In this document: positions 10,264 to 63,969 of the stretch, piece after piece
Layout: each line of letters starts with the position of its first letter
How positions within the stretch are numbered: position 1 is the stretch's first letter
Source of the DNA: Ophiura sarsii
Taxonomy: Eukaryota; Echinodermata; Ophiuroidea; Amphilepidida; Ophiuridae
DNA: 64,000 bases
Reading direction: 5' to 3'
NCBI GenBank assembly: GCA_035610835.1
Contig: CM069454.1
Coordinates: forward strand, 65,929,613-65,993,612
Notes under the pieces: generated by a model
Told to the model about the DNA's origin: nothing
What the model saw: only the letters and a program-made list of their open reading frames with translations
The model's database searches: none
Program-made: the position numbers and the translations under genes

Positions 10264-10264
10264 A

Positions 10265-11739: not shown

Positions 11740-12345
11740 TATATGTCCTATTTTTTAGATCAACGCCCCCAATTCAACAACACACCCCTATCCTACACAA
11801 CCCCACTGCAGGTTAACCCAACAGTAATATGTTATTCAAGTTCGGGTGCATTGCAAATTGTGTACTCTGATGTAGCTATACACTAGTGCTGAACTCCCCA
11901 CGTTGATACTTCTGGATTAATTTTAATGGTTTGCAGCTGTTTCTGTCGTTTCTGTCGTTTCAGCATTCTGTCTTTTATACCTGCCGATCAGCGTCATAAC
12001 TAACTCAGTATCAATTTCGAACTTAAATTAGTGATAAAACAACCTCCCGATATTTGAAAAGAATTCCCGCATATTGCAAAATTTAATTTCAGTCCTGCCA
12101 TCCTGCCTGGGTTGAAACATGACGTCATCACATTTTAGCGGCTCGCGTATTATTAGATAGTCGATCGTGTAATCGATAACTGGATAATTGATCTACTAGC
12201 GCAAATCCTGAAAGTTGAAGTGGCTCTCATAACGATCGGAGGAAGAGGATTTTGTATTGTGACAACAAAGGAAGATTGCAGTCTATTGTATCCATTGTAA
12301 TATGAATGGGACGTCTAACCACGTTTGAACGTCTTGTGATCGATT
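11740..12345 (-). repeat. Outer right arm
   Basis: Reverse complement of 505-1010 in blocks (11740-11990 and 12278-12345), with a diverged middle. Confidence 0.8.
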
Positions 12346-14629: not shown

Positions 14630-14954
14630 TTCCAATTCAACTATAGGTGAGATATTTTGAGACCATTTGAATTGTTTAATTTATTGCACTTGCAAATGTT
14701 TTTGTTTTCTGTCATATACAGGAGTTTTTTGGGAAGAATGTTTTCAGTCCCTATGAATGATTGACAGGACCGGTATAATAGCCTAGTGTGATTGTCACGA
14801 GACAAATCAGAAGGAGGGAGATGAAGGATGAGAAGAAACGTCGTTATTTACAGAATAGCATGACAGTTGGTGGTATGTTTTATCATGATAGTTTTCTGAT
14901 ATGTTTATGTTGTTTGTTTTCAAATAACTATTGTTCTTTTTTATCTCCATAAAT

Positions 14955-16249
14955 ATGTTTGATTATGCATCAGATTCTTTATATGGAAGTGGACGGCATG
15001 ATTCGGTGACGGTTAGACAACAGGGTAAAAGGGATCTGCAGGATTCAATGACAGTTGGACAACAGGCAACCAGTTCAGGGGCTGCCCATAGAAGAACTGA
15101 GGATTTTTATGTTCAGGACATTTATGAACGGTATGATTCCGAGTTTTATTTACAAAACTTTCATGAATATGAACAAGGTGGTGTTAGTCCTATTATTAGA
15201 GGTCGTTTGAGGGCTAACATTGAATTTTGGAGACTTATTGAAGCTAATGAGGAAGTCCTCGAGATCATTGATTCGGGATACAAAATCCCCCTTGTTTCTA
15301 CGCCTTTACCTACGCATTTAAAGAACAATAAGTCTGCGTTAAAGTATTCTGATTTTGTATCTGGTGCCATTATAGAATTATTGAACAGTAATTTAATTGT
15401 CGAGTTAAACTCTCCTCCAGATATCATCAATCCATTGACGGTTTCAGTTCAATCCTCAGGTAAAAATGCGATTGATTCTTGACCTGCGATACATTAATTC
15501 ATTTGTTTGGAAACAGAAAGTGTCAATTGATGATTGGCGTGTTGCTCTTGAATATTTTCACAAAGATGATCATATGTTTGCATTTGATTTGAAATCGGCA
15601 TACCATCACATTGAGATCTTCTCAGATCACTGTAAGTTTTTGTCGTTTTCATGGGTTATTAATGGAGTCAACAGGTTTTTCTCCTTTCAAGTACTTCCTT
15701 CTGGTTTATCTTCTGCTCCATATGTTTTTACCAAGTGTATCAGACCTCTTGTCAAATATTGGAGAAGCAAAGGTTACTTTATTGTTGTATATCTAGATGA
15801 CGGCTGGGGCAGAGCTTCATCCAAGCTTGAATGCTCTAGGATTGCCAATTCAGTCAAAAGTGATCTTTTGAAAGCAGGCCTGGTTCCCAACACACAAAAA
15901 TCAGTTTGGATACCGGTTCAAAACGTTGACTGGTTGGGCATGACATGGAACGCAGCATTAGGTTCACTGAAAGTTGTTGATAGAAGGATAGATGATATTT
16001 TGACATGCATCAATGATATTACTCATAGACTCCCTTATGTTACGGCCAGGCAGCTAGCTGGTTTTGTGGGGAAAATTATTTCCTTGGCACCAGTCACTGG
16101 ACATGTTGTGCAATTGAGAACTAGATATTCCACTCTGCATATTTGCATGCGCAAACACTGGGACAGTGTTATCAATCTATCTAATAGTAGTGTAGTTATT
16201 GAAGAATTGTTCTTCTGGAAATTTAATGTATGTGCTTTGAATAACAGAT
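14955..16249 (+). pseudogene. DIRS-type reverse transcriptase frame with +1 frameshift
   Basis: ATG 14955 opens a frame ending at TGA 15480-15482. The reverse transcriptase continues from 15466 in the next frame (MRLILDLRYINSFV), so an extra A in the run at 15462-15466 appears to break the protein. Motifs are FAFDLKSAYHHIEIF, QVLPSGLSSAPYVFTK and the catalytic VYLDDGWG. The thumb-like region (KSVWIPVQNVDWLGMTW) continues into the N gap. Programmed frameshifting at the A run is an alternative. Confidence 0.8.
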
Positions 16250-16349
16250 NNNNNNNNNNNNNNNNNNNNNNNNNNNNNNNNNNNNNNNNNNNNNNNNNNN
16301 NNNNNNNNNNNNNNNNNNNNNNNNNNNNNNNNNNNNNNNNNNNNNNNNN
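16250..16349. other. Assembly gap (100 N)
   Basis: Exactly 100 unknown bases, a conventional placeholder. The true distance between the retrotransposon and GK5 is therefore unknown. Confidence 0.99.
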
Positions 16350-16613
16350 TGATTTTCAAATGGGATCTTGCAAACAAAAATTTGGACGGAATTTGAACCT
16401 ATGTATGAGGATAACTGGCCAAAAATGGCCCTAAGGAGTGGCCAGGTTTTAGGCTCTTGTTATGCTCTCCTATAAAATTACTCATAGTCAAAAGGAAAAG
16501 CATTGAGTTGTTTTACCAGCAAAGGACTTTCCTCGTAATAACCTGGCTGGATTTGTATTATTATTGTGCTGTGCAATACCCTGTAGTCTTAGCCTTCAAA
16601 AAGTGTCCCCCTT

Positions 16614-42890: not shown

Positions 42891-43201
42891 GTGTTTTAGA
42901 TGAGTAGTTTGTATTTGGTGAGATCATGTGCATACTTTGGACTTCTACACCATGCTGCTTCCCAGAATTGATGGACATTTTTTAAATATCACTATGTTAT
43001 ATGGTGAACCCTGGGGTGATTTTGACATAGTGTTTGCTTGAGTGAACTCCATCTTCAGTCATTCTATTTAATCTGTATTGATAGATGAAGGAATTCAACA
43101 TAACGTAATTCTCCATACTGGAATTTTTCGTCACGGAATTCTACAATAAACACGAAAGTTCACTACCATCTTCTATTCCATAATCGGCTAACGTGGTATC
43201 A

Positions 43202-44301
43202 CTATCCAGTTGGTTTTTTGCCGTGAAATACCAAATGGAACAATTCCATGCCCGTCTTCTGTTTGATAGCATGAATCAATGTTGCCACAGTAAAGTCATC
43301 TGGAACTTTTACTATTGAGAACCCAGATCCATCCATTTTGCGAATACGAATGTTGATCATTTTGTTATTGCCACAAGGCCTCAGAACTATGCGGAGAGTG
43401 CTTTTGTCTTCAATACCATAGTCACAAACAGTGCCAATATTCTGAAGCGGTTTTCCAGCGTATATCAGTCGTTGCTGGTCTGGTGGAAATCCGAAAATGT
43501 CCTGGATCTTGACCTTGATTTTGTCAACAGTATCTGCAGGATCAACGTCATGCAAAATTGTCTTCCCTGTCAGAGTCTTGACAAATAGTGTCAAGTGTTC
43601 CTGTGATTTGTTGTTGTATTTATGCAGAAAAACAATCTGACCAGCAACAATATTGTAATCGCATAATCTTGTGTTGGTAAACATAGGAATTGCATTTACC
43701 CGCTTGTTACTTGTGAGACGTTGCTGAGAAGGCAGCATTCCAGTTTGTCTCAGTACTTCCACTTTCAAGTCCTGAACACTGAAACTGGAATTAACTTCTA
43801 CAGTTATGCGTGAGCCATTTTCCTTTTGGACAAAGATAGGAAACATGCCCGACTTGTGACTGGTGACGTCCACATTAAGCACAACTGATGATTCAGTGCA
43901 CCAGCCGACGAGATGTTCATCGTTACGCAACACTTTATCACTGCAGCACAGACGTTGTTGATCTACTGGAATACCGGTACTCGCTGCAATATCAGCTTTG
44001 ATTTGGGAGACCAAAGTATGAGGTAAAAAGGCTCGTCTTATAGTCTTTTTCCTCTCAGGTATCCGGATGCGAACAAGTAACCCAGAGCTCACACTAACAA
44101 TTCCACCTTCTGTGACACGGTACGATGAAATGGTTTGGTCGTCTTCTAGTTGAAGTCTGTTGTGTGTTAAGACTTGGAGATAATGTGGTATGTCATACAC
44201 ATTCTGGATCCGAAGCTTGAGGCTGGCGATGCTGTCTTCTGGCTCTACAATCACTGTTTGCATTCTATATTTTGTGTCCATAGAAAGCCTGAGCTGAATA
44301 C
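43202..44301 (-). CDS. Kinase-UBL gene, last coding exon (UBL6-UBL10)
   Basis: Acceptor TCATTCAG. UBL6 spans residues 681-753, UBL7 754-831, UBL8 832-913, UBL9 914-993 and UBL10 994-1045. UBL9 is the most ubiquitin-like ([25 protein letters not shown]) and keeps the counterparts of Leu8, Ile44, Lys48 and Val70, but ends PCGNNK instead of diglycine. UBL10 stops after 52 residues at TAG 43204-43202. The missing final strands are encoded one frame over (DYGIEDGSEL; stop at 43143-43141), so a one-base gain in the six-base A run (T run 43214-43219 on the plus strand) is the simplest explanation, as a real mutation or an assembly error. Confidence 0.88.
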
Positions 44302-47300
44302 CTGAATGAGACAAACAAATTACATGAATTAAATATTTGTCTAGACAAGGGATAACATGCCCATTTTTGCTTGATAAAATCATTGAGCATTTATTGAGCC
44401 TTGATTATTACTATTAATTTTTTGGAGAGGGGGAGGGGGGGGGGGGGGAAATGGGGGTTGGCAAGACAAAATGCGCTTGAAGCGCGCAAACATCTTGGCT
44501 TTTAATGTAGAAATTGCCTGGAATTAGTTTAATTTGTTCTGAATTAGACATTTTAGACCAATTTGTAAGTAATTTTGACATTTAAACTCCAAATTTTCAA
44601 TTGTTTGGGGGCCAAATGGGCTGGGGTTGAGCTGACTGAGGGGGTAATCGGGGGGGGAGGGGGGGGGGGGGGAAGGTTGCGAGAGGTATTTCCCCCCCCC
44701 CCCACACCTTACTTTGTTGTGTCTACTGAATTATGATGATGTTCAATTCATATGCTAAATACAGGACTTCATGCTCAATAGCTAATTTTATTAATTACCT
44801 ATTGAGCATGAAAAGATGCTCAATAATATTAATCAAGTATAAATAGAACTTATTCCATACCGAAGAGCTTGTGCAGTTTGAGCATATGGAACAGATTCCT
44901 ACGGAGAGGTATCCATAAGGGGATAGAAATATCCTGCACATCGTGCAAAATTCAATTCTTTTGGTTCTGTGTGCGAGTGGTAATAAAAGTTGTGTAATTT
45001 GTTCTTCTTCTAGTTTAACCCATCAAAAAGGTTTGTTTGCCCAAACAAGAGGGAAAAAAGATGGGGGGGGGGGGGGGGGGGGAGGTCAGTCGGTTACTTT
45101 TTCGTTGTTGTTGTTTTTGTTGCTATAGACACTTTTAGAGAAGAAAAAGACTATACAATTTGATTTTAACACACTTTAATACATATGTATTTGGTTTTAA
45201 TATGTACCATAGCTGCAGCTGGCAGCCCGTAGCGGCGTAGCTGGATGGTTTGACATGATCTGTTTTCCACTAGATTGTGGTAGGATCTTGGATTTGCATC
45301 ACCTTGGTGTTTTAAAGGATGGATATGTGGGAATCAGTAAATTACAGGGCAGTTCTGTTGATTAGTTTGGCAAATTAAGATGAAAATATCATTTAATACA
45401 TATATTTTCAACATAAAACATTATTTTAAAAAAAAGAATCTAAAAAAAAATGCATAGGTTTTTGAGATTTTATGGGTTGGTCACGTTCAGGCAAACAAAC
45501 CTTTTTTTATAGGCCTAATGCCAACGCTAAAAGTACCGATATTGACTTGTGATAAGTACTTGTTCAGGGATTTACTGGACTCAAGTATTAACACTTTCCA
45601 CGCGGCTATTATTTCTACCATACACAAAACAGATTTTTCAGAAACCTTTCACAATTTTCAAAGTCTATCTCAATGATTCTTAACACAATACTAGGCATGT
45701 TTGTACTTATGTCAATGCATTTCTCATGGTGATTCCAAATACGGTAATGAAATTCAATAATATTGACATTTTTTAAACATTTTGTGACATTTTGGAATGT
45801 CGTCTGCAGCTGCCTGCCGCGTGGAAAGTGTTAAGATTTCTGATAAAAACTTAATATTGATTGATCGATACTATAAATACCCAATGTACACGGTTGCGCA
45901 TTTGTCGGTGATGTGAAATCACAAATATTGTTTTGTATGTCTACACACAGAAAAATCGCGACCTCGATATGTAAAAAAATAATATGTATAACGATGTTGT
46001 GTATATTTTCGACGAGTTTCTACACAACTTCGGTAGAATTGTTGTCCAACCAGTTTACCAGTTGGCATGTAGATATTAAAAATACACAATTAAACGCAAA
46101 GCGGAAATGTTACATAGTTTGTGTATTTTTTTACATATTAAAAAGGTAAAAGTGTCGAATTACATTCTTATAATGTACAAATCTTTCAAAAATACCACTT
46201 TGCGATGTAATTTTGCGCGCAAGATCGATCACACTTGAGCAAAATGGCGGACATGGCGGAGGCAGAAGAGCTGAAGCCCAAGTGGATAGAATTAATGAAG
46301 GCTTGGGGCCTCCAGTCTTTTGTTGAAGCATTCAAAGGCTATTTGTAAGGAAGTGCACATGCATGTATGATGTAATGTAATACGGCTCGGACCTGGGGAA
46401 GCTTCTATGGTTACGCTATCCGTGCATGTATACTGCACTGCACTCCCGGGACTCATTGCGTGATTGCGGCACTGCATTCAGCCATTCAGCATATCAATGT
46501 ACTATGGTCAGGGGCGTCGATCCTGGGGGGGGGGGACGAGGGGGACGTGTCCCACCTAATAATCACGTATTTAACTTTTAAGTTATACCTAATATTCATG
46601 TATTTAATTTTTAAATTATACCTAATAATCATGTATTTAACTTTTAAATTATACCTAATAATCATGTATTTAACTTACCTAACTGGTGAGGTAAAAGAAC
46701 TACATAAAAAATTATGTTATTATTTTACCTAATATTTATGTATTTTACTTACCTAACTGCTAGGTATATTTTACATAATTACAAATTCGGTAGAATATAC
46801 CTATTTGTTCGAGAGTTCGTATTGCACCTAACGTTATGTATTTTTTTTACATAACTTACGTATTTTTTTTTCTGTGTGTATTATACTCATGTTGTACTGT
46901 ATGCAACATGTTGTCATTCAGTATGGAAACCTCACCTAAAATGGAATAGAAGTTTAAAGTACGCTTACAATGATGCAATGAATTAATGAATTCAGAAACC
47001 GACTACTGCAGTTACAATGTATGTGAAGGATTCTATGCAATGTGGATTGCTTACCTAGATTCAGTATTGATTTATCTTGAACGTTGTAGTCTGACAGAGT
47101 TTGTTTGTTGTGTAACAGTTGCCCGCCATAGAACAGATGCTGGTGATCTGGCTCAATACCGGCCCTTTGGCAAATCTTCTCTTTGGTCATCTCAATGGTA
47201 GCCATTACATCTACTTCAAATGCTACCAACTCACTGCTTGTTGTTTTCACCCTCAAGAACAAGCCTCTACGAGGCTTCGTTGCATTAAGGACCAATCTAT

Positions 47301-50300
47301 CTCCAGAGTTGATGCCATAATCTCCAATAATAAGAGCATCATCCAGCAACGTAAGATCCCGAAGGAAAAGGCGCTGTCTCTCAGGTGCGATACATATCTC
47401 TTTAGAGATTCTCTGTTTTAGGGACAGAATGGAAGTTGTTGGTTTCACATAGACAGATGTTACCTTACATTTCTGGCTGAGTAGTTGTATTTGCATTTCT
47501 GTGGGAAAAAATGGAAATATTTGATATCTTTTGAAACATTTTTATTCACCTTTTAATTTGTTTCAATGTGTACCACACATCTTCATCAAAACGTTTGAAA
47601 GAGATCCAGTGAGGTTATGCCGAATGATTCCCTCTGTTGACCCATGATGTCATAGGAAATGTCATAGGTCACTTGTATAGAAAAGGCAACTTCTAGCTCT
47701 ATTTTTAGGTATAAATGTACATGTATGTGTTGAAATTAGTTCTAGAGGCCTTATTTCAAGTTCAAATAAGAGTTCCCTCCAATCCATTTTCCCCCTTCAA
47801 TTACCATCAGCAAAAAAATTAGGATCGGGCGTCCACAAAAATGTTCAAATCCTTGAGTCAGCATGCAATTACATGTTCTTAATCTATTTTATATTCTAAA
47901 TACGACAAACAATTATGGTCATCGAGCACTAACTAAATATCTTGCTCACTCAGTGCAATCCTCCTCTCAGTGTTCTTCTGGGTACATTTCATTGCTAACT
48001 TTTTATATTTTTATGTTTAGTGCAAAACTTTTATTATGGTAAGCACAAGCAGGCTTGACCCTTTTGGTCCTTTTATCCCCCAGTCAGTGATGGAATACTC
48101 GAGACTGGTCTCAAGTCCCTATTTAGAAGGACTCGGAGGTGAAGGACTTGGTCTTGGACTCGGGCACTAGGGACTCAGGAATTGTGCCCGAGTCCTGTCC
48201 AAGTCCAGTTATATATTGGCTTATTTGTTTGCAGTAATTATTAAAATACTTATTTAGTCATCCAATCTTCAACAGTTTAGAAATAATGTCATAAAGCATC
48301 ATAAATACATTTGAACAGTTAAAAATATGCTGTTGAAAATCCTATTGATAACCATTACAAGCATTAAAACACAATTTGAGGGAACCTACAGATAATCAAA
48401 GTGATAATAATCAAGTGCAATCAAAGGCTGTCTGTATGATGTAAATGGTCTTTAGGTGTTTTGTGTCAGTGTTTATACTGTTAAAAAAATCATAACATTT
48501 CTTACAAAGAGGATATTTTGTTGGCAATTTTCAGCTTCCTAGAGCAGCTCTCTTAAAAAATTGATGGAATTAGGGATGACATTTTCAGGGAAAAGAATAA
48601 GGTGAAATGGCAGGGGAAGGGTTAATTGCTCTACAGCATATCACACCTTTTCAAGTTTGTAATTTCTCAATCTATGAACTTCTGGACACATTCTTATAAA
48701 TGCCTATAATTCAACAATTTTCCATGTATGGGGATGTGAAGGTTAAAATTGCATCATTATGTTGACAATAATGATATGTTGGCCTATTAAAGATAGCAAA
48801 ATTAATGACATGGGATCCGATCTTAAAATACATAAAAGGACTCGAGACTCAGACTTTGTAAGGACTTTGTCTCGGACTCGGACTCGAGAGGTAAGGACTC
48901 GGACTCTGGAAGGGTGGACTCGACTACAACACTGCCCCAGTTTTACATTGGTATTTATTTCCATTATGTATGTTTTCCTTTTTATGTGTCTCATTGTAAT
49001 GTATTTTGTGCAATGCCTGCGAATGATGGTGAAAGGTCTATAATTGCCTACTCCATCCTCTAGTCAGGCTTTATCTGTATGTTTTTCAATGTTGTTTATC
49101 AATAAAATTGGAATGAAAAAAACAAAAAACAAATGAAGTCCTATGTGATAGGATATGATTACACAATACAAAATAAAGATACAGTACATACAGGGTGAGT
49201 CAAAAAAAAGTTTACTCAACTTCAGCGATTTTTTTAGAAAAAAGTTTTCGTTCGTTTTCAAAACAATGTACTACGGTATAAAGACAAATCAATTAGCTTT
49301 AATATGAATTTTATCTGGTTTAGATTGGTTGAGGGAAACTTATTTTACGCTGTTTTGAATAAAAGTGACCAATTTAACGTCCGAACACGCTTCCAGATCT
49401 TGACCATTATATTTCATAAGATACGACCAATACAAAATTACAATACCGACAGCAAAAGGATCAATTCCTTTGTTATGAAATGATTAAAGTGTGGTAATTG
49501 TGTCATAAATAGGCCTTAAAGCTGTCTATTGTTTTAATCTATTAGGAGACAATTTTGAACAAGTCTATTGTCTACTTAATTCTTTTAATAAACAAGATGT
49601 GTAACGCTTTACATCATAATCCTAGTAAACATTATTAAGCTCGTTAAGCTTGAAATTAAAAACCGTGTTTTTGGTGAAAAACCAGCTCCTGTACAGAAAT
49701 AGTCATATTTACTTAACGGTATCATCAAATAGCGTGATTTTATTCCAGATGGTAGCAAAGAAATGGCGCAATCATTTAAAGTTTTGTTTGCCTTGATTTT
49801 GTGGTCAGAAATATTTTTTTAGATTTTTTCAATTAGGGTAAACTTTTTTTGACTCACCCTGTAGTACTCCACATAGTCAAAAATGAAATAATTGCTAGAG
49901 CCTCAAAACTTTGCTAGGGCCTCAAAACAAAAATGTATAGATGCATTGATAAAGGTCGTCCGTTTTTAAGGGTAGATGAGTGAACATCCTGAAGTCAAAT
50001 GATTTCATATGAAGGTTTTCATGTTCACATGAAGGTTCCCATATGAAAATGTTCATGTTGCAGCTATGAACCAAAGTTTGTTTGCAGTTTACTTTACAAC
50101 TTGATCTAAACTGACCTTTGAATTTAATATGTGACCTTTTGAACTCATCCACATATGAATGTTCCCATGTTGCATGTACATGTATTGGACTTTGTATGAA
50201 AAAGAACTGGAGAAAACTAAAAAGTGTATACTAAATGTTTGACAGACACACAACCCACACGAAGGATGCAGGTCTATCCTACGGACGACCTAACAAATGA

Positions 50301-53300
50301 TGAACAAATAAAACACAACAGGTGCGATATTGGCTGGACTTGAACCAGTGACCTTGAAACTATGCAACCCACATGATCCTATGCACAGGAAATTTTGAAA
50401 TGGTTCCTCAGTTAACTGGCACATGTTTTCTTCCACTATTCGTGCACTTCAGCTCTATCTGGATTAACCCTAACTCTACCCCCACTTTTTTCTTCAATGT
50501 GGAATATCGACCAAAAAATTCCCCCCAAATCCCCCGGGATTTGATCCAGGGACGCAGTATATTGCGCCAACTATACAGGGTGTATCAAAAAAATTAGGAC
50601 TCTGTTTCATGATGGTGTAATTATTATTATAATCATTGGACCATGACCTCTCAATGTAAAGCCCAATTAATTATTATGATATCCTGAAAATATGAGATCA
50701 ATCCGATAAAAAATAAGAAAACTAGCGAACTTTGTGTAAACCATGTCATTTACTGGTTTGTACAATGGGAATTCACACAGTAACAGTTTGTACAATGGGA
50801 ATTCAAACAGTAACAGTCGAGTAACATGAAAGTGCTCGATTTGTAACTCAATGAACCATCCACAGTGGGTTCGAGAACTATTTAACGTAACTTTTTTAAT
50901 TTGCACTGAATATGTATGCATCTGTTTTGCGGATTTTTTTAGCCTTGCAGTATTGATTTGTGCCAGAATTAAATGGATTACCAAACTTTGCTATTGACTG
51001 ATAGATTATTTACTATGTTGACAATAATATTATAACGTATTGAAACGTAAACCATGTTGTTTACTAGTCTGTACATGTAGATCCCATTGTACAAACCAGT
51101 AAATGACATGGTTTGCGCAAAGTACGCTAGTTTTCTTATTTTGCATCGGATTGATCTTATATTTTCAGGATATCATAATAATTAATTGGGCTTTACTTTG
51201 AGACTAAATTGGTCATGGTCCAATGATTATAATAAGAATGACACCGTCATGAAACAGAGTCCTAATTTTTTTGATACACCCTGTATGGGCTGGTTCCATT
51301 TTTTCATTGAAAAACGTCCACACCGGGTGGTACCAACGTGCCCAGTCATGGTATTTTGGGGTACAAAGTATATGGTAGGGTTAGGTTATGAACACAAAAA
51401 AAATCAAAAAATTGCTTCTTAACCTTAACTCTACCCCCCACACTTTTTTCAGGGTTTTTTTTCAACGTGGAAAATCGACCAAAAATTCCCCCCGATATTT
51501 GATCCAGGAACCTCCAGCACCAGAGGCGAACAATTCCCTATACTACACCACCATCAAAAAACTTCTATGCCGGGTTGTACTAACGTGCCCAGTCGTGGTA
51601 TTTTGGGGTATATGGTAGGGTTATGATCAATATTAATTTTAAATACATAATTTGCACTTACGCATCTGAAGGATACAATCCTCTGTCACTCCGTACTTGA
51701 TTAAAGTGTTGCCTGATTTCAGATGTTCCGCATCATAGAATATCTCTTGCTCGTGAAAAGGTATACCTTCTTGTTTTTCGATCGCTGCCCTCAACTGATT
51801 GACGGTGGAGTGAGGCGAGATCACCAGATCGAAAGTAGATCCGTCTACTTTCCAGATGTGTATGGTCATTCCGAAGTGAATTGTGCAATCTGACGTGATG
51901 TTGTACTGGAAAAGGTTCTTGTCGTCTTCCAGGTGGCTCCCGGAGAACAGTAGGCACCGTTTACTGGCTGCAGGGATGCCAGTTTGGTCTTCAAGTTTGG
52001 TCCGGACCAAGCCGATTGTATCACCTATATAATATATATTATCAAGGTAAATCATAATGTACAAAAAGGCAACAGTGAATATTGTACAGTTTTTTTCTGT
52101 TATATAGCTTAAAAATAAGCATTAATTGTTTACCTGAATTAGGAAAATGAAAGGATTGATCAGTCGACTTTGTGTGATTGATACCTTTGAGAGGGAAAGA
52201 CTGCACATGGATGTTTAAGGGGCAGTGCTGTCAAAGCATGTCGGATGTGTATGACATTCTCTTTGTTTTGCCAAAATCTCAAATGTACACTCCTTTTAAC
52301 AATATTTAAACAATTTTGATATTTTTATTGGCAATTTAGAATAAAAGTAACATTTCATACTTAACATTTAACATAAGAATATTTTGAAAACACTAAAAGA
52401 AAAAAAATACTAGGATGCATAATATTTCATTATAATTATTTAATTAAGGTGGATTTTTTTTACAGACAATCTGCAAATTCAAGACTAAAAATAATTCCTT
52501 ATACCTGGCTCTACTTCCAGAGTGACCTTCTCTTCAAATGTCTGCACGTTAATTGGCATCACACCGCGCAACGGTAAAAGGCAGAGTACAAGGCTGCCAT
52601 CTTGGATCATGAGAGAGCTCAACACCTGGGAATCATCGTCGAGCAGATTCGACTCATACTTGAGACGCATCTCTGCTGGAGGAATGCCTTTCTCTTTTTC
52701 AATTTTGGACTTGACGGTGCCGATGGTGTTGTGTGGGTAGACTACTAGGTCTAAAACCTCCGAATTCAGAATGCCTATCTTGATGTCAATGGTTTCTACT
52801 CCTGTTGATATTAAAATTTTAGTAATTTAGTAATAGATATTTGCAGAGCTACCAATATATCATAATCTCGTAATCAGGAATATTGATAAATTTGTTAATT
52901 TTAACAAGGCAATATCAATCTATTTTCAGGAAGTCTTACGTGAAGGTTGGCAGCTGGGCAGTTCCGTAATTAGGTAACCCAAATTGAAAAAATTGAAAAT
53001 CATTGATATAACCTAATTTATGTATCATATTAAAGGTTATGGGTTGTAGTTTCATGATATAATTTGGAATTTGATCTAACATTTTCGGTTTGGCTGATTT
53101 TGAGGTTGTTGCGGACGTACAGGGCATTTATAGTAGAAATCGCATCATGGAAGTGCAATTATTTCCATGAATGAACTAAGGCAAGTATTACAAATTGATA
53201 CAATCAATACAACAATGAACATGTGTTATGTATCATATAAAATAGTTACTTAAAATGACCAAAATATTTAAGAATTATGCTTTTTGGATTAAATTTGGTA

Positions 53301-56300
53301 CCTTCTGTTGCCGACGTACACTTCCCAAAAGCTGCTACTTTTAACCACTCTGTTCAATACTTTGGCAATGTTGGATACCAATGAAGTAAGTGTTTTTCTA
53401 AAGCTGATGATTCATACTGAATGTTTAAAACTTATTTTGTTCTGTATCTGTTTACATGTTTAATACATGGTCTCTTGTTAGTGTTGCGGCGGACATCTGT
53501 GTTGGACGTATGTACATCTGTGTTCACAGATATACGTCCTTAACACTAATATGTACGTCCGCAACGGATAAACATCAGTCAGTTTTAACTTAAAGATAAA
53601 GGTTCTGATAATTTTCTCTGTTTGTTTTCTTTAGGTTTGTCCCTCTTACAAACAAAACAATATTAGTTTTCATAACAGACCTGAACACTTCAGAGAACTT
53701 TTGATAGGAATACAGGTGTACTGAAAAAATCACTTTCTCTGCGTACGTCCGCAACGGAGGGTTTTCACACCATATCTCATTAACCGAAAATGGTACAGCA
53801 AAGGAATTTTCAGGTTTTATACTCCTACTAGAGATACTTGAAACCCAGGTGTTAACAATCAAGCAACTGGTATACTTTAGATTTTGCAAGCCCTCAAAGT
53901 GTCTGAAATGTACGTCCGCAACTACGGAACTGCCCAGCTCTGAAATAAAATAGGGAGCCATTATTTTATTTTGTCATTCATGTTGGCACAAATAAAAGTA
54001 CACTCAGCATTACCTAAATGTGTACAACCACAGCAAAAGGGTGCAGTTGTCTCTCAATGAAAGGTGGAGATCTTAATACCAACAAAATGAGCTATTATAT
54101 GAATGCTTCAAAATGACACCTTTGTGGTTCAGTTGATGCTTTCTGATGTTATGAAGACAAATTACTGAAAATTGTCTTTATTTTCTTTGCTTTCCATGAC
54201 CAATTCAGTCAATATCTCAAAATGCATTTTAGTGACAACTGTACCCTTTGCAGCGACAATAGGCCTACACCAAAAATACGACAAGTTATGCTCCAATTTC
54301 TGTAAATGTGTGCAAACCCTAATCAATGTATCAACTGTCATGATCTACACACATAGTAGCTTATGAAGACATGGATGGAGTAGTGGGCATTTCCTTTAAA
54401 TTTCAGATTTAGATCACTTGGGAGATGAGACTGAGGAAACTGGTGATGCTAGGATATATGGGGCTTCATGGCTTTAAGGGTTGTTCTCTCCCAACCAAAG
54501 TAGATTTCTTGTGCAGTACAGCATGTTTAGCATCACTACAGTACCAACAGGGCTTTTCACTAAAACAAACAGTGCCAAACATGTGCTGTAAGTTTACAAC
54601 TGGAGGTCATCTCATCTACTTCCACCTTCTAATACATGGTAAAGATAGGCATAACTTGGCCAAATATATGAAAAAGAAGTTGAATCCTAACTAAAAAACA
54701 TGAAAGGACTGAATTCATTTGTTTAAAAATCACATCAATTGTACTACATGCAGCAGGATTTTCATTTGTTTGACAACATTATCAGCCTTTCATTGTACCA
54801 GTGGTCATGTAATGAAAGTGTAGCATGATGGTGCTGCTCAAAAATATGCTTTCTCTTTCAACATACCTATTTGTACTGGTTTACAGATGAACTCGTACTC
54901 GTCCCTCCGGCCTTCTGCATCATCATCAGTATGTTCAACAACATCAACCAGAATCCATTCATCTTGGAGTTCATTGATCTTCTGTTGTAAGACCTTCAAA
55001 ATATAATTATATATTTTCAAAATATAATTATATATTTTGGATTTAAGTGGTGTAGCCAGCATTTGGTTGTAGGGGGTGGGGTAGGTGGGGTGCCTTGGGG
55101 GTGGGGGAGTGGTGGTGGCAGTGGTGGCAGAGTTATTTTACACAAAAAAACATGGAAACAATATTTTCAAATCGTTCAAATATTTCAGAGCATTTAAAAA
55201 AAATTGCTTCAAAATTATTAAAAATGTTTGAAAATACTGAATAATGGCCAATTGTAAATGAAATTTAAAAAACCCACCTCAACTACAACAAACTAACTAC
55301 ACTAGAGTGACCAACCCTGCCTGAGGTGTGTCCACAGAACGGTTTTGTACGTGTAAAGTCTTACCTGTAAGATATGTTCAATAGTGGGTCTCTTCTTCCG
55401 GTCTCCATCTACGCACTCAGCAATGAGCTGAGCAATTTCATGCGGACAGTCTTCCGGGATTGGTGGTCTTTCGTTATTTTCACACACAGCATAAATGATT
55501 TTCTGTACGTTTGGGTCTTGAAGGTGGGAGAAGGGCTCTTGTCTGGAGACCAATTCCCCGAGGACGATACCAAAAGAGTAGATATCGTAATCGGGAGAAA
55601 GCTTGTATTCGATTAGAACTTCTGGTGCCATCCACGCGACAGATCCCGACGTCTTTGCCGTTGTTATTGTCTTCTCGATATTCTTCGCCAAACCAAAATC
55701 ACCCAATTTTAACGTGAAATCCCTGGCGATCAAGTAATTTGGTGATTTGACATCCCTGTGTAGAATCTTCTTCCGCCTGAGGTACTGAATCGCGCTCGCG
55801 CCCTGTTTTCCCCAATTGTAGACCATTTCTTCACACAGGGAATTGCTCTCTTTGTCTGTGTAGAGGAACGTGTAAAGTGAGCCTTTTGGGCAAAGCTCAA
55901 GGATCAACATGAAATCTGGCTCGCTATCCAGAACACCTAAGAGAGGTATGATATTGGGATGGCTCAATTTAGCGAGGATTTCCAGCTCTCTCCGATCCAC
56001 CGAATTGTGCTTCTTGGCAGCTACTTTGATGCCGGCTGCTGGTAGATTGATATCATAATGGTATCCTGTGGAAGAAGAAAAAATCATTAGGCCAATGAAG
56101 TTCTATGAGCTCGACCTACCCATTGAGAAAAAACTTTTTTTTGATAATTCACAATAATGTAATAAACCCGCCCCCACCCCCCAAAAACACCCACCTAACC
56201 GACCCTACCGGAGAGGTTCCGAAAGTCCATGGAACAAGGTGGTTGTAGATGCTTTTCATTCGGGGTAGATTTTCAGCGTTTTTTGCAATTTTTGCAAATT

Positions 56301-57283
56301 ATAGGCCTATAACAGACAGGTCTATGACTATGTGGTAAAGATTCACCAAAATGTTTATTCTTTATGTATTAAAAACCCTGTCCAAACACCATCAGGTATT
56401 CACCATGAAATATACAATACATTTCTTTGTCTGTTGTCATGTCTCACTCAGACACTCTCCCACCATGAAGGTACTAGACCTCGAAGCTGGTCCATCAAGT
56501 CTCTTACATAACACCTTCTTAAAGGCATATTATGTGATCTTTTCATGAGAGCGCCCTCTATTCATGATTTTTTTTTAGAAAGTAGATTTTCTTGCAGATT
56601 TACATTTCTGATCACAAATACATTCCAAGTTACAGAGCGATACGGTTCCTAATTACCTCAAAATCATGGTTTTAGAGTGAATTTAGAGTGAAAATATAAA
56701 CTGTCGGTTATCCCGACAGTTTATTTTCTGAAGAAAAAATAATTAGAAATATTTCTGAATGGTGTGTGGATTTCTGCACGCTTGCGCACATGTATGTGGA
56801 CAAAATAAAACAAGTAAAATATCATGGAATAGTTTCATCTGGAATTTAGGGTGGGGGGTGCCGTAGAGTCATAAACTTGAAAGCAGGGGGTGTGGTCGGG
56901 AAGACGACGTGCCTTGCCCAAAACCGACGCAAAAAATTGAGCTTGATAACCAACAGTGCTAACTGGTAATCTCAACCGACACAACTCGAAATATTGGGGG
57001 CTTCCCCCCTCCTTCCATGGCTACACAACTACAGTACCAACCCTAAATTCGTTGATGGATTGCTAAAAGTGCCCCTTTTATGATAGCAAAATCTTGACCA
57101 TTTTCGACTGGTTTTTTTTAGCCTGATAGCTCTGTATTGTCACATGTCAAGTGATCCCTAATGTGTATAATTCTTACCTGATTGCTTCTTCCATACAGCC
57201 TCAAATACTTCACTGAATGTGCCGCAACCGATCTTAGGACCAAACTCCAACTCATGTCTCTCCACTGGAATCACATAAGACAT
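43202..57283 (-). CDS. TKL-type protein kinase fused to ten tandem ubiquitin-like domains (seven coding exons)
   Basis: Coding exons, 5' to 3' on the minus strand: 57283-57178, 56065-55365, 54993 (or 54981)-54867, 52801-52505, 52024-51662, 47498-47055 and 44301-43202. All introns are GT-AG and the phases agree (1, 0, 1, 1, 1, 1), giving 1045 residues (1041 with the alternative exon 3 acceptor). Residues 8-269 are a protein kinase: glycine loop GCGTFSEV (19-26), lysine K53, likely helix-C E62, HRD 138-140, DFG 158-160 and APE 182-184. All catalytic residues are present, and the sequence resembles the TKL (MLK/ZAK-like) group. Residues 270-311 form an acidic linker. Ten ubiquitin-like (beta-grasp) domains follow, starting near residues 315, 391, 457, 533, 608, 681, 754, 832, 914 and 994. 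The ninth is closest to ubiquitin. No LRGG-Met junctions are seen, so the repeats should stay joined rather than be processed like polyubiquitin. Kinase substrate and pathway are unknown; a signalling scaffold is only an inference. Confidence 0.85.
45588..45834. mobile_element. piggyBac-like MITE, copy 2 (in kinase-UBL gene intron)
   Basis: Same TTAA-flanked CACTTTCCACGCGG ends as 32035-32283 and the same interior order (AAACCTTTC, AATGCATTTCTCATGGTGA, AATGTCGTCTGCAG). 247 bp. Confidence 0.85.
46244..46344 (+). CDS. Possible first coding exon of an unidentified plus-strand gene (SAM-like N-terminus)
   Basis: The ATG at 46244 sits in a GC-richer context (AAAATGGCGG). It opens 33 codons plus two bases, then reaches a consensus GTAAGG donor at 46345. 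The peptide [20 protein letters not shown] followed by [13 protein letters not shown] has the W..LM..WGL..F...F spacing of the first helices of a SAM-like domain. It lies inside the last intron of the minus-strand kinase-UBL gene and inside a putative TA-flanked inverted-repeat element (45943-46879), so it may be a host exon or part of a transposon. No second exon was found. Confidence 0.4.
46509..46554 (+). repeat. Solitary hAT-like end
   Basis: CAGGGGCGTCGATCCTGGGG resembles hAT ends at 58851 and 27576. No partner end found. Confidence 0.45.
46555..46690. repeat. 33-bp tandem repeat, nearly four units
   Basis: Unit CTAATAATCATGTATTTAAC followed by TTTTAAATTATAC. The 33-bp length keeps a reading frame open but the product ([11 protein letters not shown] repeats) is not a credible gene. 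Confidence 0.8.
47055..47498 (-). CDS. Kinase-UBL gene, coding exon 6 (UBL4 and UBL5)
   Basis: A 444-nt phase 1-1 exon holding exactly two ubiquitin-like domains (residues about 533-607 and 608-679). UBL4 has [21 protein letters not shown]5 has [20 protein letters not shown] and ends [13 protein letters not shown], close to ubiquitin's SDYNIQKESTLHL. Acceptor CCCACAG, donor GTAAGC. An exon carrying a whole domain pair in symmetric phase fits growth by exon duplication. Confidence 0.88.
48085..48934. mobile_element. Non-autonomous hAT element
   Basis: Left CAGTGATGGAATACTCGAG, right CTCGACTACAACACTG. Flanks CCCCCAGT and CCCCAGTT share CCCCAGT, consistent with an 8-bp hAT duplication with one change. 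Sub-ends are rich in GGACTCGG repeats. 850 bp. Confidence 0.75.
49189..49863. mobile_element. Mariner-type MITE
   Basis: TA + CAGGGTGAGTCAAAAAAAAG at the left and CTTTTTTTTGACTCACCCTG + TA at the right. 675 bp, no coding content. Confidence 0.85.
50325..50375 (-). repeat. tRNA-like fragment
   Basis: On the minus strand CACTGGTTCAAGTCCAGCC is a good B box; the A box half is weak. SINE relic. Confidence 0.4.
50465..50573 (-). repeat. SINE-like repeat, left copy
   Basis: GGATCAAATCCCGGGGG (minus strand) resembles a tRNA T-arm; with AACCCTAACTCTACCCCCAC on the plus strand it recurs at 51414-51545. Confidence 0.5.
50574..51285. mobile_element. Mariner-type fold-back MITE with about 200-bp arms
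   Basis: TA + CAGGGTGTATCAAAAAAATT at the left, AATTTTTTTGATACACCCTG + TA at the right. Mirrored arms cover AGTCCTAATTTTTTT, TGGTCCAATGATTATAATAA, ATGATATCCTGAAAATAT. 712 bp. Confidence 0.9.
51286..51545 (-). repeat. SINE-like repeat, right copy
   Basis: Shares AACTCTACCCCC, AATCGACCAAAAATTCCCCC and TTTGATCCAGG with 50465-50573. ACGTGCCCAGTCRTGGTATT is repeated at about 51329 and 51583. Confidence 0.5.
51662..52024 (-). CDS. Kinase-UBL gene, coding exon 5 (rest of UBL2, UBL3)
   Basis: A 363-nt phase 1-1 exon, acceptor TATATAG, donor GTAAGT. UBL2 continues with [18 protein letters not shown], and UBL3 covers residues about 457-531 with [13 protein letters not shown]. Ubiquitin's central helix and following loop are recognisable in both, but there is no diglycine at either end. 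Confidence 0.85.
52505..52801 (-). CDS. Kinase-UBL gene, coding exon 4 (UBL1 and start of UBL2)
   Basis: A 297-nt phase 1-1 exon. It encodes a complete ubiquitin-like fold (residues about 315-389) with the typical [10 protein letters not shown] helix and a PLRG end resembling the ubiquitin tail, then the first two beta strands of UBL2. Acceptor TCAACAG and donor GTATAAG are both good. Confidence 0.85.
52951..53942. mobile_element. Element with GCTGGGCAGTTCCGTA inverted ends
   Basis: CAGCTGGGCAGTTCCGTAAT at 52951 is mirrored by TACGGAACTGCCCAGCTCTG at 53923-53942. GTACGTCCGCAAC or its complement occurs at least four times inside. The ends look hAT-like but no target duplication was seen. In the third intron of the kinase-UBL gene. 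Confidence 0.65.
53943..54866. other. Intron sequence; no gene
   Basis: Rest of the intron between exons 3 and 4 of the kinase-UBL gene. Nothing recognised. Confidence 0.5.
54867..54993 (-). CDS. Kinase-UBL gene, coding exon 3 (linker)
   Basis: It encodes a 38-42 residue acidic linker (motif [19 protein letters not shown]) between the kinase and the first UBL. The donor GTATGT is clear and phase 1. Two acceptors are possible, both in frame: AAG before 54993 and ACAACAG before 54981; they differ by four residues. An AT-rich direct repeat (two copies of about 23 bp) lies immediately upstream, which may obscure the polypyrimidine tract. Confidence 0.7.
55365..56065 (-). CDS. Kinase-UBL gene, coding exon 2 (bulk of kinase domain)
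   Basis: A 701-nt exon between acceptor CCACAG and donor GTAAGAC. It carries kinase subdomains II-XI: VAAK lysine (residue 53), HRDVKSPN catalytic loop (138-145), DFG (158-160), activation segment ending MAPE (181-184), DIYSFG (196-201) and the RPT motif near residue 260. It ends exactly at the end of the kinase domain in phase 0, as expected of an exon-shuffled module. Confidence 0.9.
56066..57177. other. First coding intron of the kinase-UBL gene
   Basis: GT-AG. Contains a half copy (56519-56715) of the palindromic MITE of GK5's intron. Confidence 0.8.
56519..56715. mobile_element. Half copy of the TTAA-flanked palindromic MITE
   Basis: TTAAAGGCATATTATGTGATC through ATCATGGTTTTAGAGTGA match the left arm of 17618-18030. 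It lacks the G run and the right arm. Confidence 0.7.
57178..57283 (-). CDS. Kinase-UBL gene, coding exon 1 (start codon and glycine loop)
   Basis: The ATG is at 57283-57281. The exon encodes 35 residues ending in WKKQSG, with the P-loop GCGTFSEV, and stops at a GTAAG donor in phase 1. A pyrimidine-rich acceptor (CTTTCAG, exon from 57318) lies just upstream of the ATG, suggesting a further 5' untranslated exon that I cannot place. No TATA box or clear promoter was recognised upstream. Confidence 0.85.
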
Positions 57284-59252: not shown

Positions 59253-60426
59253 GAGTTATGACCATATAATGATTTTGACCAAGTATTTTTAGCAACATTT
59301 TTAAGAAAAATTGTCTCAAGAAATTTCTGTGACAGAATTGAGACACCATGAAGATATGGGAAAAATAAATTATACACTCATTTTTTCCAAAAATACTTAG
59401 TCAAAATATGAATTGGGTTGTCAAATTCAGCAGTCATGACACAGAAAATGGTCAAAATACCCCAAATTTAAAAGAGTTGCCTGACCATGAAGGAGAAGAG
59501 TCTCCAAAACACTTTTTGATTCGTATGAAAGGTTAGACATGTATTAACAAATGGTGTGAGTATAAAGTTGGAGATTAAAATGTTACCAAGGTCAAAGGTC
59601 ACGAAGAATGTCGGTTGTTTTTCGATATTTTCTGTCTGGAGCCTACTTTAGACCCCTGCAAACTATTGATTAAATGAGTCAGGGCTCTATCATTGCTTGA
59701 GGGTAACAACATGTGACTGTACAATACAAATATATATGCCATATGAAGCTTTTTTGTGATTATCAACCATGATTGTCCTATGGCTAATTTGTTATTTGAT
59801 ATTTTGATGGAGCTTGCAGAGCTCCACAATAATCTGAACTTTGAGATTGATCGCATGTACAGTTTTCTAGATATATGACAATTTTATTGTCAAAAATCCA
59901 TTTTAAGTCATTTTGAATTCTTTTGTTTTGTATTGTTTTTCGGCCAACAGAGGGCAGTCTATTTTCTTTTGTTTTATATTGTTTTTTTGACTCCCTAGGT
60001 AAAATATCTAAAGAAAATAGTATTTTGTTTTTGCTCTAATTTTTCATTGAAAACTCCATTAGATTCCCGCAGCACAGGAATTAAGGAGAGTTGTATAGCC
60101 AACATATACACCAAGTGGCATATCATTTAGGAAAGGGCATGAACTTGAACAAATTAATTAAGTGTATTAACTAGCCTAATTTTTGTAATTTTTAGTTTTA
60201 GATAATTAAGTATAATTAATTATGCAGTTGTCTTACAGCCTCCTGCAGCACAGGAAACTTTCTAAAAACTATAATTAACAAGCTCCAGTGGCGTACCCAG
60301 AGGGGCCCCTGGAATAGAGTTTGATGCCAGCACCGTGAGGTTGCTCTCGTATCGTTCTCTTCAATTTTCATCATTTTTAGCGGAATTATTGCTTTATATC
60401 GCCAGTGTTTGTGACTGTTAGTTGCT
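59253..60426. other. Non-coding, possibly including LINE 5' leader
   Basis: No reading frame with recognisable features. CAGTGGCGTACCCAG at 60286 resembles a hAT end (27576 type). CAGCACAGGAA occurs at 60069 and 60246. Confidence 0.5.
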
Positions 60427-63400
60427 GTGAATGTGTGGATCGTCAGGATGTTTGTGTTTCCTAGTTATCGTACTTCATTTTTCCATGTTTTATGGACACT
60501 TTCTGTTCTCTCCTTGTTGGATTTTGCCGTTGATTGGGTATGTACTGTACATAACGTAAATCCGTGTACCCCGATTGAACGATCGAGTACCAGGATCAGC
60601 ACCCATCGTGGTCATACCAATTACCCACTCGAGGAACCAAATATAAAGCCCAATATTGATCATCATATCAGATATAGACGTGATAACTTGCTCTCATTTC
60701 AAACATCATCACCCGGCATCAATAATGGTAATATCAATTACCCACTTGAGGAACCAAACACAAAGCCTAAAATTGATCATCATATCAGATACAGCCGTGA
60801 AAACTTGCTCTCATTCCAAACATCACCACCCGGCATCAATAATAACATTGACTGTGGAATAAATGAGAGTTTATGTACCCGTTTAGCAACCTTGAATTTA
60901 CTTCACCATCCTTGCCCGTTTCATGCCCCTACCCCAACTGAAACACGCAGAGTTAAATCTAAGCGGTGGAAGAAAAGAGGAAAGGGTCGCAAGAAAGTAA
61001 CCCAAAGAGGTTTCCCTATTTCTACGGTGCTTGGTAACAGACAGCTAACCGATTGCAATCCAGGACAACTGTCCTCGAACCAAATAAATATACGACAATT
61101 ACGTACACATAATAACAATGTCCTTAATGTTCGCTTGTGGAATGCTCGCTCTGTGCGTCAGAAGACAATTTCCATATTTGAAGACATCATTGCCAATGAT
61201 GTTGACATTTTTGCGCTAACTGAAACGTGGCTCGCTGAGAATGACCCTGTTGTTATTGGTGAGATGCTACCACAAGGTTACTCCTTTTTGAGTTATCCAC
61301 GAAAGGAGGATGAGCACGGTGGTATCGGGTTCATCCATAAGACCAATCTCAGCATTCAAAATACACCTACTGGCATCAGATCAATATCCTTTGAACATGC
61401 TTGTGTCACCCTGAAGAAATCCGGAGTGAAAATTATAGCCGTGTATCGCCCACCCCCTTCAACGATCAATCAATTGACATCTAGTCAGTTTTATGGAGAG
61501 TTTGAGACCTTTATCAATGACGTTAGCCTTGTCTCTAATAAAACCTTGCTGCTTGGTGATTTTAATGTACATGTGGATGTACCATCCAAGCCGTGTGTCG
61601 CTGGCTTCATTGACAATCTTACCGTACATGGTTTTCATCAACACGTAGTTGGAGCTACTCACGATAAAGGGCATACCCTGGACCTCATCATATCACGTCC
61701 TGAAGATATGTTGGTTTCTAACTGTAAAATCTTGCCAAGTTTAGGTTCGGACCACATGCTTATTAGTTGTATCTTGAATTGTGAAAAACCTGAGCCTATC
61801 ACTATCACTCGCACTGTTAGAAATATCAAAAATATGGATAAAAATGGTTTTTCCATTGATCTTGCGTTTGAGATCAGTGATCTTGATTTCAGTGAGTGTA
61901 CTGTTGATGACATGCTTGAACAATTTAACGGCATAGTCCTTGGTGTGTTAGACTCTCATGCACCTCCTCAGCAGCGCTCATGTAGAATAAGATCTCAATC
62001 TCCTTGGTTTAATGACGAAATCAACAAAGCCAGACGTGAAAGAAGGAAATGTGAAAGAAAATGGCTTAAGAGTAAAAGCAAAACTGATCATGATGCTTAT
62101 GTCAAACAACTCAAGGTCACTAATAAGCTCATTAACTGTACCAAAGAGAACCACTACAAAGAGAAACTTGAGGGATCAAATAGCAAGAATATGTATGGTA
62201 CTTTGAACCAATTACTTAACAATAACGTCAAACAACTCCCTGATTGTAGTTCTACTACCGATATGTGTAACTCGTTTGCTACATTTTTCAATGACAAAGT
62301 TATGAAGATACGTAGGAACCTTGATGACAACTCTGAATCTAATGTTGATGATTGTGAACTTGATATAAAAATGTGTGGTAAATCAATGTATGCTTTTTAT
62401 AATGTGACTTATGATGATGTTTGTAATATAATTATGTCGACACCTTCAAAATCGTGTACTCTTCACACATTGCCTATGTGGTTGTTAAAGGAAAATATTG
62501 CTGAGCTTGTAGCTCCACTGACAAATATTATCAACAAATCGTTCAGTAGTGGTATTTTCCCAACACAACTCCGTGAGGCGGTTGTGTCCCCTATTCTCAA
62601 GAAACCTACTCTGGACAGACAGGTTCTTAAGAACTACCGACCTGTATCTAACCTTAGCTATGTGTCCAAGATCATGGAAAAAATCATTTGCGCCCAGATA
62701 AAAGACCACCTCAATGTCCATGGTCTTCAAGAAAGCTTCCAGTCTGCTTATAAAGAACTACACAGCACTGAAACAGCCCTTCTGTGTGTGAGAGCTGATC
62801 TTCTGAGAGCCATTGATGAAAACAAAGCTATTGCGGTCGTGTTACTTGATCTCTCTGCCGCGTTTGACACGGTTGATCATTGTATTTTGTTGAGGCGGCT
62901 TTCTTCCACCTTTGGTATCCGTGGCAAGGCTCTTAGTTGGATTCGTTCTTACTTACAGAACCGTTCGTTTCGTGTTCGTGTTGGGGATTCCGAATCTACA
63001 ACACATGATCTTAGATTTGGTGTTCCCCAGGGCTCTGTTGTTGGGCCACTTTTCTTTACGATGTACACTAGTGATATTGGTAATATAATCCGTAAACATG
63101 GCATTAAATATCATTTGTATGCGGATGATGTCCAACTGTACCTGTCATTTGATCCCAAGATTAGCGGAGACGCTGAAAGATCTGTTGCTCGACTCACATC
63201 TTGTATAAATGAAATCAGTGACTGGATGACTAAAAACAAACTCAAGCTCAATCAAGACAAAACTGAGTTTTTCATCGCATCGTCAAATTACAATTGCAAA
63301 TTCATTAATGACATTACCATCACAATTGGTGACACTGTTATACAGCCATCTCCAACAATCAAAAATCTGGGTGTCGTATTTGATCGTACTATGTCCATGA

Positions 63401-63969
63401 CTGCACATGTTAAATCTACCATCAAAACAGTGAACTTTCATCTCAGGAATATTTATAGAATACGTCGTTTTATTACTGTTGATAGCTGTCACCACCTAGT
63501 CCGGTCACTGGTTTTATCTCGTTTGGATTATTCAAACTCTTTACTTTATGGCATATCAGCGAAAGATCGCAACAAATTACAAACATTGCAGAACAGGGCC
63601 GCAAGAATAATTTTTAGATCAAACAGAATGGATTCGTCTGCACCCCTCCTTAGAGAGCTACACTGGTTACCCATTACATCAAGGATTACATACAAACTCA
63701 TGTTGTTCACCTTCAAAAGTTTTCATGGCCTTCTTCCTATGTACCTGACAAGCTTTCTCACTCCGTACATATCAAAGAGACCTAATCTGAGGTCAGGTGA
63801 TGACAAATTACTTCTCACAATCCCTCGTACGAAGCGTGCTCTTGGTGACAAAGCCTTCTACGCTATTGCTCCACGTCTATGGAACTCTCTACCTGCCTCA
63901 CTCCGCAATTGTTCTACTATTCATAAGTTCAAAAAGGCTCTCAAATTTCATCTATTTCCTAAGCATTAA
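60427..63969 (+). CDS. Intact CR1/L2-like non-LTR retrotransposon ORF (endonuclease + reverse transcriptase)
   Basis: A 1180-codon frame without stops or frameshifts. The APE-type endonuclease starts near residue 234 (NVRLWNARSV), with LTETW, YRPPPS, LLGDFN and SDHM (about residue 441) marking its catalytic motifs. Reverse transcriptase follows from about residue 720, with NYRPVSNL, DLSAAFDTVDH, GVPQGSVVGPL and YADD (898-901). The C-terminus (LHWLP, LWNSLP, ending KALKFHLFPKH) is typical of CR1/L2/Rex-like clades. The first 45 residues are hydrophobic, so the true start may be downstream. Residues about 65-142 are two copies of a 39-residue unit (DNA period 117 bp). No separate upstream ORF1 was seen. 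An unbroken frame suggests a young, perhaps active copy. Confidence 0.9.
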   Translation: MNVWIVRMFVFPSYRTSFFHVLWTLSVLSLLDFAVDWVCTVHNVNPCTPIERSSTRISTHRGHTNYPLEEPNIKPNIDHHIRYRRDNLLSFQTSSPGINNGNINYPLEEPNTKPKIDHHIRYSRENLLSFQTSPPGINNNIDCGINESLCTRLATLNLLHHPCPFHAPTPTETRRVKSKRWKKRGKGRKKVTQRGFPISTVLGNRQLTDCNPGQLSSNQINIRQLRTHNNNVLNVRLWNARSVRQKTISIFEDIIANDVDIFALTETWLAENDPVVIGEMLPQGYSFLSYPRKEDEHGGIGFIHKTNLSIQNTPTGIRSISFEHACVTLKKSGVKIIAVYRPPPSTINQLTSSQFYGEFETFINDVSLVSNKTLLLGDFNVHVDVPSKPCVAGFIDNLTVHGFHQHVVGATHDKGHTLDLIISRPEDMLVSNCKILPSLGSDHMLISCILNCEKPEPITITRTVRNIKNMDKNGFSIDLAFEISDLDFSECTVDDMLEQFNGIVLGVLDSHAPPQQRSCRIRSQSPWFNDEINKARRERRKCERKWLKSKSKTDHDAYVKQLKVTNKLINCTKENHYKEKLEGSNSKNMYGTLNQLLNNNVKQLPDCSSTTDMCNSFATFFNDKVMKIRRNLDDNSESNVDDCELDIKMCGKSMYAFYNVTYDDVCNIIMSTPSKSCTLHTLPMWLLKENIAELVAPLTNIINKSFSSGIFPTQLREAVVSPILKKPTLDRQVLKNYRPVSNLSYVSKIMEKIICAQIKDHLNVHGLQESFQSAYKELHSTETALLCVRADLLRAIDENKAIAVVLLDLSAAFDTVDHCILLRRLSSTFGIRGKALSWIRSYLQNRSFRVRVGDSESTTHDLRFGVPQGSVVGPLFFTMYTSDIGNIIRKHGIKYHLYADDVQLYLSFDPKISGDAERSVARLTSCINEISDWMTKNKLKLNQDKTEFFIASSNYNCKFINDITITIGDTVIQPSPTIKNLGVVFDRTMSMTAHVKSTIKTVNFHLRNIYRIRRFITVDSCHHLVRSLVLSRLDYSNSLLYGISAKDRNKLQTLQNRAARIIFRSNRMDSSAPLLRELHWLPITSRITYKLMLFTFKSFHGLLPMYLTSFLTPYISKRPNLRSGDDKLLLTIPRTKRALGDKAFYAIAPRLWNSLPASLRNCSTIHKFKKALKFHLFPKH
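60619..60852 (+). repeat. 117-bp tandem duplication inside LINE ORF
   Basis: Two adjacent units starting at 60619 and 60736 encode NYPLEEPNIKPNIDHHIRY and NYPLEEPNTKPKIDHHIRY. The period is a multiple of three and the frame is kept, so the N-terminal spacer of the retrotransposon protein has simply grown. Confidence 0.85.

Follow-up and report, generated by a model that had tools for sequence, protein, structure and literature searches.

Could one gene join a protein kinase to a chain of nine or ten ubiquitin-like domains (UBLs), and what would such a protein do? This question is raised by a locus of the brittle star Ophiura sarsii on contig C14 (CM069454.1) of the 1.57-Gb assembly, in a stretch of 64,000 nucleotides (forward-strand positions 65,929,613 to 65,993,612) which was analysed as a whole and is called the window below. 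The gene lies on the minus strand. The original prediction gave it seven exons with matching phases and GT-AG borders, and the exon model confirmed this: seven minus-strand exons gave 1,045 codons and a stop, all borders were GT-AG, and the intron phases (1, 0, 1, 1, 1, 1) were mutually compatible. The predicted protein is composed of a kinase (residues 13-271), a linker exon (270-312, 43 residues), UBL1 to UBL9 (313 to about 991) and part of a tenth unit, UBL10 (994-1045). The chances are about even that this is one MAP3K-like kinase gene of the TKL group, in which nine or ten diverged UBLs would form a permanent C-terminal docking or regulatory arm. The parts of the gene are as follows, with positions counted within the window.

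57178..57283, minus strand: exon 1, with the start Met, the kinase N-lobe and the G-loop GCGTFSEV; donor CAG/GTAAGA
55365..56065, minus strand: exon 2, carrying the remainder of the kinase (VAAKK and the alpha-C Glu); identity to the public protein P0241 at 153 of 233 residues
54867..54993, minus strand: exon 3, linker; alternative start at 54981
52505..52801, minus strand: exon 4, all of UBL1 (52799-52563) and the beginning of UBL2; the open frame has no Met ahead of UBL1
51662..52024, minus strand: exon 5, remainder of UBL2, and UBL3
47055..47498, minus strand: exon 6, UBL4 and UBL5
43202..44301, minus strand: exon 7 as first read, UBL6 to UBL9 and 52 residues of UBL10; TAG at 43204-43202
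43376..43588, minus strand: UBL9, the unit nearest to ubiquitin (57% identical)
43144..43275, minus strand: open reading frame (ORF) in another frame, apparent end of UBL10, running to a stop

The kinase motifs were complete, including the G-loop, Lys, alpha-C Glu, HRD, DFG and APE, and the domain passed Pfam PF07714 with 183.3 bits (cut-off 23.1). The kinase is thus predicted to be active, and the earlier description of a TKL kinase keeping every catalytic motif holds, with activity judged from the motifs only. By sequence it belongs to the TKL group and is MAP3K-like. Among the best 60 of 2649 matched sequences of solved structures, the nearest kinases were of the TKL group (ZAK, DLK, MLK4, RAF and TAK1), with ZAK (MLT, 142 bits) and MAP3K12 (DLK, 141.5 bits) about equally near, and neither TBK1 nor IKK was found. 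The tyrosine kinases EGFR, TYK2 and ABL were also among these 60, where the top-ranked EGFR entry is a two-kinase chain that sums two domains and has 75.5 bits per domain. In a 28-row tree, which did not include ZAK, the clade of the window kinase (13 rows, 99/99) stood outside DLK and MLK (97/98).

For the UBL chain, the nine complete units were scanned singly against PF00240 (cut-off 25.4), and all nine passed, UBL1 to UBL9 scoring 44.6, 55.5, 45.7, 44.1, 66.5, 35.1, 34.9, 31.3 and 82.2 bits. Ten consecutive UBLs had been claimed; nine of them stand as complete domains, while the tenth amounts to about two thirds of a unit cut by a stop. The units have diverged strongly, with a median pairwise identity of 21% among UBL1 to UBL9 and individual identities of 24-57% to ubiquitin (24-48% for the eight other than UBL9). 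The TBK1-type ubiquitin-like domain (ULD) model PF18396 gave 48.8 bits on the whole protein as a sum only; single UBLs reached at most 18.5 bits (cut-off 31), and no stretch passed alone. LRGG was absent throughout the 1,045 residues, and UBL1 retained LRG followed by V, so the usual processing would yield no free ubiquitin, as had been argued from the lack of LRGG-Met junctions. Polyubiquitin genes, whose repeats lie on C12 in this genome, share the head-to-tail arrangement of ubiquitin-like units, but an ordinary polyubiquitin is ruled out by the missing LRGG together with the strong divergence.

The UBL chain is single-copy in the assembly. Nine of the 67 matches in a whole-genome PF00240 scan fell in this gene, and the best genome matches outside the window for the exon 7 UBLs, and likewise for UBL1 to UBL5, were polyubiquitin and some weaker UBL places. 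None of these other places could be taken as a copy of the gene, since the kinase had no match with an E of 1 or less in 15 stretches of 10 kb. On C15 (L015, C15:69383509-69380809), a long charged ORF, which by eye resembles a coiled coil, precedes three or more diverged UBLs (three stretches matching PF00240), and ORFs in different frames overlap there; the locus was rejected as a gene copy, as no kinase match better than E 0.84 was present in 80 kb. In addition, short UBL exons were clustered on both strands at C3:86.07-86.32 Mb, perhaps as a family of small UBL proteins.

The tenth unit was broken. In the frame first read, UBL10 has 52 residues before the TAG, and this in-frame part scored just 3.0 bits with a profile derived from seven of the nine complete units, so it is the least certain unit of the chain. 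The same profile found UBL positions 44-68 in another frame (the ORF at 43275-43144; E 1.9e-4, 18.3 bits), which stops about where the UBL fold should end. Six consecutive A's mark the position of the break, and homopolymer A runs are a common site of assembly errors. The two pieces were treated separately. Probably UBL10 is frameshifted in this allele or assembly, and the gene feature would then probably end near 43144; the end first given, 43202, falls inside UBL10, the break having been missed. No second copy of the UBL10 stretch was found in the assembly, so that sequencing error, allele and real truncation are indistinguishable.

The kinase of the window is, on sequence, a member of an expanded family in this genome, the size of which was overlooked in the original prediction. 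Its kinase exon gave 150 scored matches, itself included (from 666 first-look candidates), 116 at 45-54% identity and 33 at 37-43%, thus 149 others; these counts are of single-exon matches, lower bounds that may include pseudogenes. Ninety-nine of the 150 were in arrays of at least three (150-kb linking), which were distributed over C4, C2, C3, C10, C12, C6, C7, C8 and C14. Three sampled members of the family fell into the window clade of the tree. The nearest of the public proteins listed was P0241 (277 residues, from a 1,043-base contig), 66% identical over the residues given above. Its similarity starts and stops at the limits of exon 2, and HRD and DFG are kept. In the tree P0241 paired with the window kinase (100/98), beside 11 relatives from this genome, Amphiura filiformis and public contigs (99/96). 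Among the matches listed, a MAP3K20-like kinase of A. filiformis was 48% identical to the window kinase, and the A. filiformis proteins P0250 and P0254 matched this genome at up to 63% and 58%, which set it apart from that species. The arrayed kinases and the pairing of kinase with NHL, both shared with A. filiformis, would suit another, related brittle star.

Some of the relatives carried another C-terminal module. The relative L031 has an NHL module downstream of its kinase (39 bits, cut-off 20), and P0250 is a kinase with NHL repeats (28.7 bits, same cut-off); P0249 also passed, with P0245 and P0247 just below. P0250 had three NHL matches in this genome, each a short way downstream of a kinase match; in two cases kinase and NHL share one open frame, at these places:

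C4:22648200-22650380: kinase and NHL in one open frame
C4:33151124-33153223: kinase and NHL in one open frame

A more distant A. filiformis protein, P0292, was a kinase with a P2RX7_C domain.

The kinase with UBLs was then sought as one architecture. Two kinase searches were made, one with residues 1-410 (candidates of about 575-1829 residues; best 120 of 4083 passing, 8000 scored) and one with a query of 389 residues (candidates of about 214-681 residues; best 120 of 3010 passing, 6544 scored). The UBL-region search, in which polyubiquitins dominated, gave the best 120 of 1255 passing (8000 scored). A UBL profile match was present in none of the 233 proteins listed by the kinase searches, and a kinase match in none of the 120 listed by the UBL search; an ortholog could rank below the matches listed by the latter. 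Among the papers listed from the open-licence literature, which covers few subscription papers, a kinase with a UBL chain was also not found at the level of titles and abstract openings. The statement that no TKL kinase with a long UBL chain has been described thus agrees with the 353 listed proteins and this literature. Single UBLs on kinases and UBL chains on other enzymes are known already; what these searches did not find described is a kinase with a long UBL chain. Within the genome, only one of the 150 scored kinases, that of the window, lay near UBL exons.

Several findings weigh against a single intact kinase-UBL gene. Five splice borders were weak altogether, three of them acceptors (exons 3, 4 and 5, pyrimidine fractions 0.64, 0.50 and 0.50) and two of them donors (after exons 4 and 5, in the top 8-9% by rank among the 835 GTs of the minus strand at 58000-43000, the other four being in the top 1.6%). 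The exon 3 acceptor is also followed by a second in-frame AG 12 nt further on. A kinase-end donor comparable to that of exon 2 was absent in the relative L033, Pfam detected neither NHL nor UBL in five ORFs close to the kinases of L032 and L033, UBL10 was broken, and kinase and UBLs occurred together in none of the 353 proteins listed, eight of them annotated in A. filiformis. Two adjacent genes on the same strand, one for the kinase and finishing with exon 2 or 3, the other for the UBLs alone, would suit the clustering of the weak borders around exons 3-5, the 2.1 kb between exons 3 and 4 with three polyA-signal-like words (which are not specific), the in-frame Met with which UBL4 begins, and the C15 multi-UBL gene of the same genome without a kinase in the 80 kb around it. 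Such a pair is nevertheless rather unlikely, as the exon 2 donor is in the top 0.5% of the same ranking and is preceded by no stop, and exon 3 is coding-like in the joining frame, with 0.41 bits per codon versus no more than 0.19 in intron windows of equal length that are open (8.7% of 2,000; the score was trained on just 1,279 codons, taken from one C15 ORF and three kinase paralogs). Moreover, UBL1 lacks a start: no in-frame Met precedes it in the open frame, so that an upstream exon in phase 1 is required, and exon 3 provides one. When the 150 scored kinases were compared with 38 representative PF00240 places, only the window's own had one of these within 100 kb, a single case and not a statistic. 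Apart from these points, the model frame had the best coding score in each of the seven exons, and the kinase ended at a GTAAGT donor in the equivalent place in two of the three relatives examined (L031 and L032). The joining of the exons into one mRNA is supported, not proved, with the splicing predicted from these borders and frames.

The gene might also be decaying, with the break in UBL10 as the onset of loss. The break itself, the missing second copy for comparison and the failure to find a chain-bearing ortholog among the proteins listed would be in keeping with decay, which is judged quite improbable in the face of 1,045 remaining codons that are open over seven exons, each best in the model frame, and of a break at six A's where the other frame stops near the expected end of the UBL. 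Another proposal concerns the chain, which had been suggested to act as a fixed ubiquitin mimic or as a multivalent platform. A fixed mimic engaging ubiquitin-binding partners would resemble OASL, whose two UBLs can replace K63-linked chains on RIG-I (PMC4446440), and UBL9 would be suited to it, as it retains L8, I44 and V70 (H68 being changed to R) as well as K6, K11, K27, K29 and K48, without K63 and the GG end. Ile44, however, was lost in the other eight complete UBLs, K63 was lost in all nine aligned units, K48 was kept in UBL7 and UBL9 (also in UBL8 in the pairwise alignment), and the eight units other than UBL9 are considerably further from ubiquitin. Since LRGG is absent and Ile44 is lost in eight of nine, general ubiquitin mimicry by the chain seems unlikely, and the OASL-like reading has a low probability; UBL9 could still bind some ubiquitin receptors. 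The suggested platform fits better than the mimic, probably through diverged docking surfaces.

The docking or regulatory arm is favoured because its closest working parallels are TBK1, protein kinase D (PKD) and USP7. PKD belongs to a different kinase class and has one N-terminal ULD. Like the arm proposed here, its ULD regulates the kinase; it does so by dimerising it, and is needed for activation (PMC6768651). TBK1 and IKK-epsilon have an N-terminal kinase with the ULD directly after it, in TBK1 residues 1-307 and 308-384, and the TBK1 ULD binds its own kinase domain as well as substrates (PMC8994244); they differ in having one ULD followed by coiled coils and in belonging to another kinase family, where the window gene has nine or ten UBLs. 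In USP7 a catalytic domain is likewise combined with a chain of mutually diverged UBLs, five in number and less than 15% identical to one another (PMC4457826), which provide docking sites for partners and are believed to fold back onto the enzyme, UBL4-5 helping to activate the catalytic domain (PMC4457826, PMC12566277). USP7 is a deubiquitinase without a kinase, so it serves as an analogy only. OASL has an enzyme-like domain with C-terminal tandem UBLs (PMC4446440) but only two of them and no kinase. The closest kinase domains, among the matches listed, were those of ZAK/DLK/MLK-type MAP3Ks and the A. filiformis MAP3K20-like protein, and these relatives differ in showing no UBL profile match in the 233 listed, some brittle-star ones carrying NHL repeats instead.

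Under the docking-arm reading, some UBLs may bind substrates or partners, and others may fold back onto the kinase, or pair with another chain, and so switch the kinase on. UBL9, which is still ubiquitin-like, may additionally recruit ubiquitin-binding proteins. The origin would probably be module shuffling, in which a kinase of the expanded family was joined to a UBL chain instead of the NHL module that several of its relatives carry.

Other features of the window were few. Inside intron 6 a plus-strand stretch at 46180-46420 holds a short ORF, which was ruled out as a gene, since it lies within a repeat; from 76 candidate places 40 were scored, and among those listed 25, counting its own, had 100% identity, so that the repeat is probably a recently active mobile element. 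The remaining features are as follows.

60415-63966, plus strand: open frame of LINE type with endonuclease and reverse transcriptase domains
9929-11886: long minisatellite (KRERGKEG / LFPSFPLS repeats) that is open in several frames, both strands included, and is no gene
14928-16434, plus strand: reverse-transcriptase-like ORFs (FAFDLKSAYHHIEI...), including a stretch reading X; no Pfam match in the first of them (14928-15479); presumably resembling a DIRS-type element

With one UBL in TBK1 and PKD and five in USP7, it is seen that UBLs can switch catalysis and choose partners. Nine or ten UBLs, if true, would be the longest such arm known to us on a kinase, and the chain would make it possible to ask which units serve for docking and which for regulation, and if any of them takes the role of ubiquitin. 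More tentatively, one MAP3K-like kinase may have multiplied in brittle stars to over 100 copies, many of them in arrays, and had its C-terminal modules swapped, one copy gaining a ten-unit UBL arm that would wire a MAP3K into the ubiquitin system, possibly in immunity. The locus also points to a large kinase expansion in brittle stars with exchangeable C-terminal modules.

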